This document shows, piece after piece, positions 41,802 to 44,197 of a DNA stretch of 64,000 bases. The position numbers and the translations under genes were made by a program. The DNA comes from an uncultured Planctomycetales bacterium (GTDB taxonomy: Bacteria; Planctomycetota; Planctomycetia; Isosphaerales; Isosphaeraceae): positions 1 to 64,000 of the forward strand of contig CAIYJE010000188.1 in the NCBI GenBank assembly GCA_903926465.1, written 5' to 3'. The stretch's first letter is position 1, and every line of letters starts with the position of its first letter. A model generated the notes under the pieces. That model made no database searches and was not told where the DNA came from. It saw only the letters and a program-made list of their open reading frames with translations.

Positions 41802-42497
41802 TCAGGCGATATCACCGGCCACCCGAAGCTCGGCAATGGCCGCCTCCAGTGAGATGGCATACCCCAGCCCGGCGACGGCGGCATCGCGGGCAATGTCCGG
41901 ATGAAACACCGTGGAGTTTGGGGCGGCAAAGTCCGAACGGTTAGAACTGACCAGAACCCGGGATTTTGGATATCCCCGCCCCAGCAGCGTGCTGACTTGG
42001 ATGGCATGGCCGAGTATATGACAGTCTTTTACAGTCCCATTCTTTGACGACGGCTTAAGCTTGGCTGCCACGCGGTCGAGTGCCAACGACATACCATCGT
42101 AATCCCGGTCAAGCGTGTCCGATGCCTGCAAGAGGTCACGGGACAACCTCTCCAGCTCATCGATCAGGCTACCGGGTGGAAGTGCTGGAAGGGGCGGGGC
42201 CGGAAGCCCGAGATCAGCGGCAATTTCCCAGGTAGTTGTAAACGCCTGGACACCCAAATCACCGTCCCGCCGAGCAGCAGCCAGATTATCGGACCACTCT
42301 TGTGGAACGATATCTTGTACAAAGAGCTGAACAGTGCCGACCGTCGCCAGCGCCTTGAGCTCAAGGCTTGCTCTGACCGTTCCGATCGAGCCGCGGTATG
42401 GCGCCCGAACGATATCGAGCAATGCACAGGTATCCAGGAAAAGGATGGGTCGAGGGGACGCGATTAAGCTTGTCGCGGCCCGAGCAACGGTTGTCAT
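41802..42497 (-). CDS. PIN-domain protein
   Basis: A 231-residue protein. The start 'PRPILFLDTCALLDIV' is the first PIN strand with its catalytic Asp. A middle acidic region, 'DTLDRDYDGMSLALDRV', is followed by 'VKDCHILGHAIQ' and 'VLVSSNRSDFAAP', which fit the later acidic metal-binding positions. PIN proteins are usually metal-dependent RNases, and many are toxins (VapC-like) or defence effectors. It is coupled by an ATGA overlap to the upstream gene, its likely partner. The ATG is at 42497. The RNA target is unknown. Confidence 0.78.
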   Translation of the reverse strand: MTTVARAATSLIASPRPILFLDTCALLDIVRAPYRGSIGTVRASLELKALATVGTVQLFVQDIVPQEWSDNLAAARRDGDLGVQAFTTTWEIAADLGLPAPPLPALPPGSLIDELERLSRDLLQASDTLDRDYDGMSLALDRVAAKLKPSSKNGTVKDCHILGHAIQVSTLLGRGYPKSRVLVSSNRSDFAAPNSTVFHPDIARDAAVAGLGYAISLEAAIAELRVAGDIA

Positions 42498-43153
42498 GGC
42501 GCCAAGACGGCTAATTGCTGGGCCAGCCACTCCGAGTCCTTGAAAAAATGGTCGGTCAGAACTTTCGATGTATCGGGAGTCCAGCCGCTCTCCGCGAACC
42601 AGCGGCATAACTCAGCCCCGTCGATGGCGACATGTTCGGCCAAGCAGCCGGATACGAGTTCGTCCCACGCTTTTTTGGCTTGATCATCGAGCGGCCAGCT
42701 TCCATCAGCGATGTCGGCCAACCGATTAAACAACATTTCTGTGTTGGGGGTACAAACGCTTCGTGGCCCGAACGTGGGCCGTGTGTACCGGATACCGTTT
42801 ACGCTAGCCGCGGGCATCACACAGCCAGACACAAGCTCAGCAACTAAACGACCAATCTGCCCCGTGTCACCCGTGAGCGAATGGCGGAGCACCTGGACTG
42901 GCCCACCTCGGACTCGCGTTGGAGTCACCTGCTGAAGACACACCCGGACCGCCGCATCCCCCTTTTGGTCATACGTATAGAAGCGCAAACGCACCGGCCG
43001 CAAACGGGACCGCTCATATTCCAGATCGCGAGCCCAGCCCGGCAAAAGACCTGTGTCGATCCCATCGAGAAACCGACTGATGGCAAGCGAAGCTCCACAG
43101 TAAAGCGACAAACGCCATTGCTGAATCGAGACGAAGGGGTCGACCCTAGGCAT
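42494..43153 (-). CDS. Unknown protein paired with the PIN-domain protein
   Basis: A 219-residue protein with no membrane helix and no recognised domain. The N-terminal half is Arg-rich ('RSRLRPVRLRFYTYDQKG'), and the C-terminal half carries Trp/Phe-containing helices ('CRWFAESGWTPDTSKVLTDH'). The start is taken as ATG 43153, with GGAG 8 bases upstream; the open frame continues through the arfB-like repeat but reads it out of frame. It overlaps the PIN gene by 4 bases, as toxin-antitoxin or defence pairs do. The role is inferred from this context only. Confidence 0.7.
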   Translation of the reverse strand: MPRVDPFVSIQQWRLSLYCGASLAISRFLDGIDTGLLPGWARDLEYERSRLRPVRLRFYTYDQKGDAAVRVCLQQVTPTRVRGGPVQVLRHSLTGDTGQIGRLVAELVSGCVMPAASVNGIRYTRPTFGPRSVCTPNTEMLFNRLADIADGSWPLDDQAKKAWDELVSGCLAEHVAIDGAELCRWFAESGWTPDTSKVLTDHFFKDSEWLAQQLAVLAP

Positions 43154-43211
43154 GGAACGAACTCCGGCCATGTGTGTTGTGAGCAGTATGAAATTATACC
43201 TTTCGGCCAAC

Positions 43212-43370
43212 CGGTCCTCGTCTAGCCTTCTCCGAACCCGCTCGACCGGCGGCCTTCCTTGGTGGCCGAGCGTTTCTTCTTCGATTCTAAACGCCGTTGC
43301 TGAGATGCCTTGGACGGTTTGGTGGAGAACCTGAGCTTGGGCCGAACGGCCGCCTGGCGGATGATTTCCA
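43212..43370. repeat. Direct repeat copy A, partial arfB 3' end
   Basis: 159 bases matching 43759-43920 (copy B). Apart from an 18/21-base variable stretch near the coding end, there are 8 mismatches in about 140 aligned bases. The copy runs from the ArfB glutamine/isoleucine region to 10 bases past the stop codon. Confidence 0.9.
43222..43370 (-). pseudogene. 3' fragment of arfB (no start)
   Basis: In the arfB frame the fragment encodes 48 residues, from 'EIIRQAAVRPKLRFSTKP' to 'GFGEG' and a TAG stop. It has only one substitution (Thr to Ser) and one Gly deletion against the intact copy, while most base differences are synonymous. There is no start codon or 5' part, so it is a displaced 3' end. 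It lies directly after the stop codon of the 92-codon orphan gene. Confidence 0.85.
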
Positions 43371-43371
43371 C

Positions 43372-43650
43372 TTACCACCCATAGCTGAAGCGCGATACTG
43401 AACCAATTGATTCACTCAATTTAGGGCAAAAACACGGATCACTCAGGTAAAATCTAGACTTCTGGCCATGCTTGAAAACGATTACCTCAGCGCCTTCAAA
43501 AAAAAGATGGGGGTTTGGAGTACCTCGACTGCCCGGACCCGAATCTAGCTTGCAATCGCGGTGTGCTCCATCCCCCAACCTGATCGTTTGTGCGTTTTTC
43601 TCGCCTTCGAGGTGTTTTACGATAGCTTGGTAGGTTTCAGGAGCAGTCAT
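43372..43650 (-). CDS. AT-rich orphan gene between the two arfB ends
   Basis: A 92-residue protein, acidic-basic mixed, with a short N-terminal helix 'TYQAIVKHLEG' and a beta-like C-terminal half ('HLFFEGAEVIVFKHGQK'). The ATG at 43650 has GAGG 12 bases upstream, which is weak. The region is visibly more AT-rich than the neighbours (26 of the first 60 bases are G or C), suggesting foreign origin. No family is recognised. Its stop codon is 1 base from the end of repeat copy A. Confidence 0.55.
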   Translation of the reverse strand: MTAPETYQAIVKHLEGEKNAQTIRLGDGAHRDCKLDSGPGSRGTPNPHLFFEGAEVIVFKHGQKSRFYLSDPCFCPKLSESIGSVSRFSYGW

Positions 43651-43758
43651 AAACTTCAATTTCCTCGTGAGAATGTGCTTGATGGAGTGACGACTTCTAA
43701 TTCCTCGATGAAAACTATTTGATGGAACCGATTTCACGCCCGCTTTAACTTCTTGCTT

Positions 43759-43920
43759 CGGTCCTCGTCTAGCCTTCTCCGAATCCGCCGCTGGAGCGGC
43801 GGCCTTCCTTGGTGGCCGAGCGTTTCTTCTTCGATTCCAGGCGCCGTTGCTGAGAGGCCTTGGTCGGTTTGGTAGAGAACCTGAGCTTGGGCCGAACGGC
43901 CGCTTGGCGAATGATTTCCA
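43759..43920. repeat. Direct repeat copy B, 3' end of intact arfB
   Basis: 162 bases including the last 49 codons of the intact arfB gene, its stop and 10 bases beyond. It matches copy A (43212-43370) in the same orientation. The repeats begin at the same base downstream of the stop (CGGTCC) and end at the same codon (TTTCCA on the plus strand). Confidence 0.9.
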
Positions 43921-44197
43921 CCAATCGCTGCACCACCGCCCGTCGATTCCCTTCCTGGGTTCTCTCGGCCCGGGCCACCACCACCAGCCGGCCATCGGCA
44001 TCAAGCCGGTTGGCCGCCTGGGTCAATAACCGGGCCCGCACATCTTCAGGTAGGCTGGGCGATCGGGTCGCGTCGAACCGGAGCCGGACCGCCGTCTCCA
44101 CCTTGTTCACATTCTGACCGCCCGGCCCCGACGACCTCAGGAACTCAAACTCGAGTTCCTGCTCGTCGATGGCAATGCGGTGGTTAACCTCAATCAT
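43769..44197 (-). CDS. arfB: Alternative ribosome-rescue factor B (peptidyl-tRNA hydrolase)
   Basis: A 142-residue protein with the GGQ motif in SSGPGGQNVNKVETAVRLRF and a basic C-terminal tail (KKKRSATKEGRR) that enters the mRNA channel. It frees ribosomes stalled on non-stop messages by hydrolysing the peptidyl-tRNA. ATG 44197 starts the fold. Its 3' end is duplicated 550 bases downstream, which implies insertion or recombination at this gene. The protein itself appears complete and functional. Confidence 0.93.
   Translation of the reverse strand: MIEVNHRIAIDEQELEFEFLRSSGPGGQNVNKVETAVRLRFDATRSPSLPEDVRARLLTQAANRLDADGRLVVVARAERTQEGNRRAVVQRLVEIIRQAAVRPKLRFSTKPTKASQQRRLESKKKRSATKEGRRSSGGFGEG

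Follow-up and report, generated by a model that had tools for sequence, protein, structure and literature searches.

A mobile PIN-domain gene pair with a large partner of no known family, a candidate toxin-antitoxin-like module

Introduction

What kind of system is encoded when a PIN-domain gene is coupled to an upstream gene that belongs to no known family? The question is raised by a locus in an uncultured Planctomycetales bacterium (Isosphaeraceae; assembly GCA_903926465.1, 6.9 Mb), within the 64,000-nucleotide stretch that was analyzed here (contig CAIYJE010000188.1, positions 1–64,000, forward strand; hereafter the window). An earlier note on this DNA had described the two genes as a coupled pair next to a displaced arfB 3´ end, proposed a toxin-antitoxin or RNase-based defense module, and suggested that the first gene could encode a new type of PIN partner. 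Here, the pair is characterized by family searches, structural models, and comparison with related loci, which suggest a toxin-antitoxin or infection-response module as its most likely role.

Results

The pair and the adjoining arfB tail

Both open reading frames and the ATGA overlap described in the earlier note were verified, and their coordinates are summarized in Table 1. An in-frame ATG further upstream, at 43171, would give a partner of 225 residues, and thus the exact start of the partner is not fixed. A consensus scan returned no full promoter 5´ of the partner gene. The G+C content of the pair is 58–59% and its GC3 is 61–63%, which is lower than the GC3 of the flanking genes (72–83%) and agrees with acquisition of the pair.

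Table 1. Coordinates of the gene pair and of adjoining features in the window
Feature	Position	Strand	Basis or remark
Partner gene, 219 aa, no known family	42494..43153	-	ORF and translation, family searches, model
PIN-domain gene, 231 aa, PIN_12-like	41802..42497	-	ORF and translation, Pfam, model, alignment
ATGA stop/start overlap (partner stop and PIN start)	42494..42497	-	Both ORFs
TATAAT, possible -10 element 5´ of partner	43193..43198	-	By eye
Displaced arfB 3´ tail, duplicate of 43760-43921	43213..43371	-	Adjoins pair, functionally separate

The pair lies directly past the displaced arfB 3´ end, as had been noted, with the partner start about 60 bp beyond the duplicated tail. The interval between the partner gene and arfB consists of the displaced tail, which encodes the last 51 residues of arfB (96% identity), and a spacer. 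The two tail copies share 91% DNA identity, and a third copy was found nowhere else in the genome. Each about 160 bp long, they flank (43213–43921) a spacer of about 390 bp with a low G+C content (48%), which contains a 92-codon ORF (43372–43650) of no known family. The duplicated tail and spacer are probably a small insertion into the 3´ end of arfB; no integrase was noticed beside the duplication. The arfB neighborhood of the pair is particular to this one genome. In relatives with both the pair and arfB, the two are located on different contigs or megabases apart, and none of the arfB loci fetched from relatives has either gene of the pair in its flanks of about 1.5 kb. A functional tie between the pair and the arfB scar was therefore rejected, because the two are unlinked in relatives and the tail duplication is local.

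Distribution and conservation

The partner-first pair occurs in Planctomycetota, Cyanobacteria, alpha-, beta- and gammaproteobacteria, and Geobacter. Among 148 relatives, a single-sequence search found 8 genomes with the partner and 12 with the PIN gene, and a profile search revealed the partner or its remnant directly upstream of all 12 PIN genes. The pair is present in 1–2 of 392 genomes of a phylum sample, in 7 of 194 of a cyanobacterial class, and in 5 of 5,426 E. coli genomes (nucleotide search); its distribution is patchy in every sampled group. A scan of prokaryotic contigs with the PIN alignment returned 18 loci, including planctomycetes, cyanobacteria, Geobacter, Nitrosomonas, and Crenothrix, at which the upstream partner is intact (16 loci), broken (1), or reduced to a remnant (1). 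Searches of plasmids contributed two further pairs, both in Sinorhizobium, and one Fischerella partner that stands alone; a phage collection gave no match.

The gene order is constant, and the intergenic gap ranges from -20 to +6 bp in all 18 pairs measured. The two genes are conserved together across several phyla, and the pairing is far above chance. A dN/dS of about 0.2–0.4 for both genes indicates purifying selection. The distance matrices of partner and PIN protein correlate over 21 loci (r = 0.87, Mantel p = 1e-4), a value to which shared ancestry contributes.

The PIN protein

Structure prediction, which the earlier note had proposed, gave models for both proteins. The PIN protein model has a pLDDT of 93.5. 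Foldseek returned no match at E ≤ 0.001, with VapC chains ranked first, and a second structural aligner placed PAE2754 (Z 11.2 and 11.1) and many VapC toxins (Z 9–10) nearest. All 21 aligned PIN homologues share nine residues (D22, T23, C24, D28, E67, R142, P149, D158, and N186), and the conserved acidic active site on a PIN fold, which is a feature of VapC-type toxins, is present. The window protein matches PIN_12 (PF16289) with 23.3 bits, below the curated Pfam cut-off of 32 bits; 14 of 15 homologues match the family at E ≤ 0.1 (best 3e-12), and the E. coli and Sinorhizobium relatives exceed the cut-off with 47–56 bits. The model, its structural neighbors, and the residue identity show that the protein has a PIN fold with its acidic, metal-binding residues in place, and it is a probable RNase.

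PIN proteins that stand without the partner (in G408 and G657, the second copy in G500, and those of Rhizobium and Agrobacterium plasmids) are distant PIN_12 types and lack the N-terminal helix. A sister PIN_12 group of 343 residues, likewise partner-less, is found on Rhizobium and Agrobacterium plasmids (L136, L137, L138) and at L036. It has its own conserved C-terminal extension (RQVWYNRHxNLR ... GPWxDFEWGMINGKLSA), and Shedu-like or Abi genes are located nearby in two of the three plasmids; this group is possibly a single-gene system.

The partner protein

None of Pfam, PADLOC, NCBIfam, and PHROGs returned a match for the window partner, and a profile search of the PDB was likewise negative. 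Searches with homologues gave scattered single matches at chance level (17 proteins against Pfam) or nothing convincing (8 proteins against NCBIfam). With 219 residues (210–220 in the family), the partner is larger than VapB, and no RHH, AbrB, Phd, or HTH match was obtained from Pfam or NCBIfam, which agrees with the absence of a visible DNA-binding motif in the earlier note and rules against the partner as a classical VapB. A housekeeping partner is disfavored by the patchy distribution and the absence of any family match. DUF5830 (PF19148) was not detected in the partner homologues at thresholds up to E = 1 or 10, nor in two host records, with a model that matched its control. AcrIF4 is not among the 50 fold matches listed for the partner, although an AcrIF4-like domain may still be present, and the partner has no sequence match in the PDB.

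The partner model (pLDDT 87, pTM 0.80) divides into two domains, alpha/beta at the N terminus and helical at the C terminus, and six of the eight most conserved positions are located in the C-terminal one (W163, L182, G190, W191, L199, and L210). The N-terminal domain (about residues 4–124) aligns with KA1, adaptin-appendage, and SRPBCC-type alpha/beta folds at Z 6–8, values that are common between unrelated proteins, and homology to these folds is not claimed; the C-terminal domain is barely covered by this comparison. No match at E ≤ 0.001 was obtained from a viral structure library. By sequence and profile comparison, the partner family is new relative to Pfam, NCBIfam, PADLOC, PHROGs, and the PDB, and its novelty is limited to these libraries. 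The idea of a new PIN partner type is upheld to the extent that no known family was matched, yet the pairing with the PIN gene is conserved. Of the two outcomes that the earlier note had named as refuting it, a partner from a known housekeeping family and a pair that is not conserved, neither was observed.

Decay of the pair and solitary partners

Both genes are intact at 21 of 39 distinct loci. The partner is intact next to a broken PIN gene at five (the finished S. acidiphila genome, L054, L081, L086, and L092) and without a PIN gene at four (the Fischerella plasmid, two viral contigs, and G596). At seven loci a broken partner is accompanied by a broken or absent PIN gene, and two are cut by contig ends. 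None of the 39 loci, which were counted before the E. coli islands described below, combines an intact PIN gene with a partner that is broken or missing. With the E. coli exception added, the tally of losses is 9:1 (one-sided sign test, about 0.011 by our own arithmetic), a count that is biased by the partner-based searches from which the solitary partners came and in which some gene breaks of metagenome assemblies may be assembly errors. Among the loci found through the PIN gene, an intact partner with a broken PIN gene occurs in four (L038, L054, L086, and L092) and the reverse in none.

The two viral contigs (IMG/VR; L059 1303–2681 and L058 10001–11362) encode an intact partner without PIN gene. 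In one, the partner adjoins Abi_alpha (5e-15); in the other, it lies just upstream of a distal tail gene, where phages typically carry extra genes. At a cyanobacterial locus (G561; L082 8650–10812), an insertion of about 1.5 kb splits the partner, and a PIN gene was not detected nearby.

Genomic neighbors

The E. coli island around the pair contains a RepL-type gene, an H-NS-like gene, and a DotA/TraY gene, with an integrase in strain E7476, and adjoins a Pycsar operon of PycC and PycTM (PADLOC 1e-11 and 2e-12). On S. meliloti pRRI128_3, the pair directly follows a type II CBASS operon with cyclase (7e-138), ThiF/E1-E2, JAB, and SAVED with a 2TM effector. On an S. chiapasense plasmid, the pair adjoins an MkoB-like operon. 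That operon (L055 13417–20237; AAA/MkoB-like/PP2C/DUF3800) has by itself the appearance of a candidate defense system. In planctomycetes and most cyanobacteria, ordinary genes surround the pair. The 131 neighbor genes gave only scattered defense matches, from which enrichment is claimed in neither direction. Defense or candidate defense genes thus adjoin the pair in E. coli and on the two Sinorhizobium plasmids, but a consistent defense-island location is not supported, since the neighbors are ordinary at most chromosomal loci.

A nonsense allele in E. coli

The five E. coli islands (L139–L143) offer a natural comparison of intact and nonsense alleles on nearly identical DNA, which bears on whether the partner is an antitoxin or an activator. 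Over 9,460 bp, the islands of strains E7476 (pair at about 1470605–1471948 of NZ_CP035817.1) and 4/1-1 are identical except for two positions, and one of these differences creates a stop at partner codon 83 in 4/1-1. The stop is present in four of the five strains, and the PIN gene is identical and intact. Full-length partner is thus not strictly required for survival in E. coli, unless the C-terminal half suffices, for which residues 104–210 remain open from a TTG codon with no evident ribosome site, or lost translational coupling silences the PIN gene.

Discussion

We favor, with a probability of roughly 0.55, the reading that the two genes form a mobile, toxin-antitoxin-like module whose large PIN partner is new. 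It fits best a conserved, mobile, and often decaying pair in which decay almost always strikes the PIN gene first and the partner is found alone; partners that persist by themselves, as on the Fischerella plasmid and two viral contigs, are what an antitoxin would predict, whereas a mere cofactor would not. The earlier proposal of a toxin-antitoxin or RNase defense module thus leads, based on the indirect evidence of the asymmetric decay, the solitary partners, and the proteobacterial neighbors. In such a module, the two-domain product of the first gene would bind and restrain the PIN ribonuclease. Loss, degradation, or displacement of the partner, for example in a phage infection or when the element itself disappears, would free the PIN protein to cleave RNA, probably tRNA, rRNA, or mRNA, and growth would stop. 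Of the two partner domains, the conserved, helical C-terminal one may be the better candidate for binding PIN, and the more variable N-terminal one for sensing. Two observations speak against this reading: the stop at partner codon 83 beside an intact PIN gene in four of the five E. coli islands, and the lack of a recognized DNA-binding domain in the partner.

The strongest rival, which we consider possible and nevertheless rather unlikely, is an anti-phage system resembling DS-5, in which both proteins would be needed and the partner would sense infection or activate and target the PIN protein and would not be an antitoxin. The tolerated E. coli allele, with a nonsense partner and an intact PIN gene, fits this explanation as well or better, as partner deletion is also non-toxic in the validated two-protein PIN system of E. 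coli (PMC13092281), and the locations beside Pycsar, CBASS, and MkoB-like genes are in line with it. However, the partner has no DUF5830 match, the majority of loci lie away from defense genes, and a pure cofactor would not explain why 9 of 10 losses struck the PIN gene or why partners stand alone on mobile DNA.

A more tentative variant, to which we give less weight again, is an undescribed anti-phage module in which a two-domain sensor and inhibitor would restrain a PIN_12 RNase until infection, and prophages or plasmids would carry the partner alone to disarm the host copy. Partner-only copies, found on two viral contigs and one plasmid, hint at a possible counter-defense use of this kind.

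That the pair is a classical VapBC toxin-antitoxin system whose VapB is unusually large is improbable: the antitoxin-first overlapping operon and the VapC-type nearest solved folds are as expected, but the partner matches no VapB family in Pfam or NCBIfam and the PIN_12-type protein is about 100 residues longer than the aligned VapC chains. Least probable of all is a housekeeping or stress RNA-processing pair, neither toxic nor immune, which would suit the purifying selection on both genes and the ordinary planctomycete neighbors but not the patchy occurrence (8–12/148, 1–2/392, 7/194, and 5/5,426), the frequent decay, or the plasmid and viral-contig copies.

Comparison with known systems

In the literature searched, which covered neither supplements nor most subscription papers, no record of the pair was found; PF16289 is unmentioned there, and the one paper that names DUF4935 is an unrelated genome paper. 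The main text of the NetFlax toxin-antitoxin network names PIN clusters in general terms only (PMC10440598).

Like VapBC, the pair is a two-gene operon that encodes a putative restraining protein first, followed by a PIN-fold protein with conserved acidic residues, and the first gene overlaps or abuts the second. In contrast to VapBC, the partner belongs to no VapB family, and the PIN protein is of PIN_12 type and measures about 230–250 residues. DS-5 (DefensePredictor), in which deletion of the partner ablates defense without unleashing toxicity, also occurs in E. coli; its partner carries DUF5830 and an AcrIF4-like domain (PMC13092281). The comparison with DS-5 covers the partner, and the present pair is not filed as DS-5 because its partner has no DUF5830 match. 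Makarova et al. (2009) regarded a small conserved gene beside a PIN gene as probably an antitoxin and listed PIN-associated families such as COG2442 (70–80 aa), COG2886, DUF104, DUF217, and MerR-like families with DNA-binding folds (PMC2701414). The present pair shares with these the conserved gene beside a PIN gene in a two-gene operon, but the listed families are smaller or DNA-binding, and the partner exceeds them in size and gave no Pfam match to any. A partner family that is missing from the curated libraries searched, yet accompanies a single group of PIN nucleases in several phyla, would add a new class of PIN regulators.
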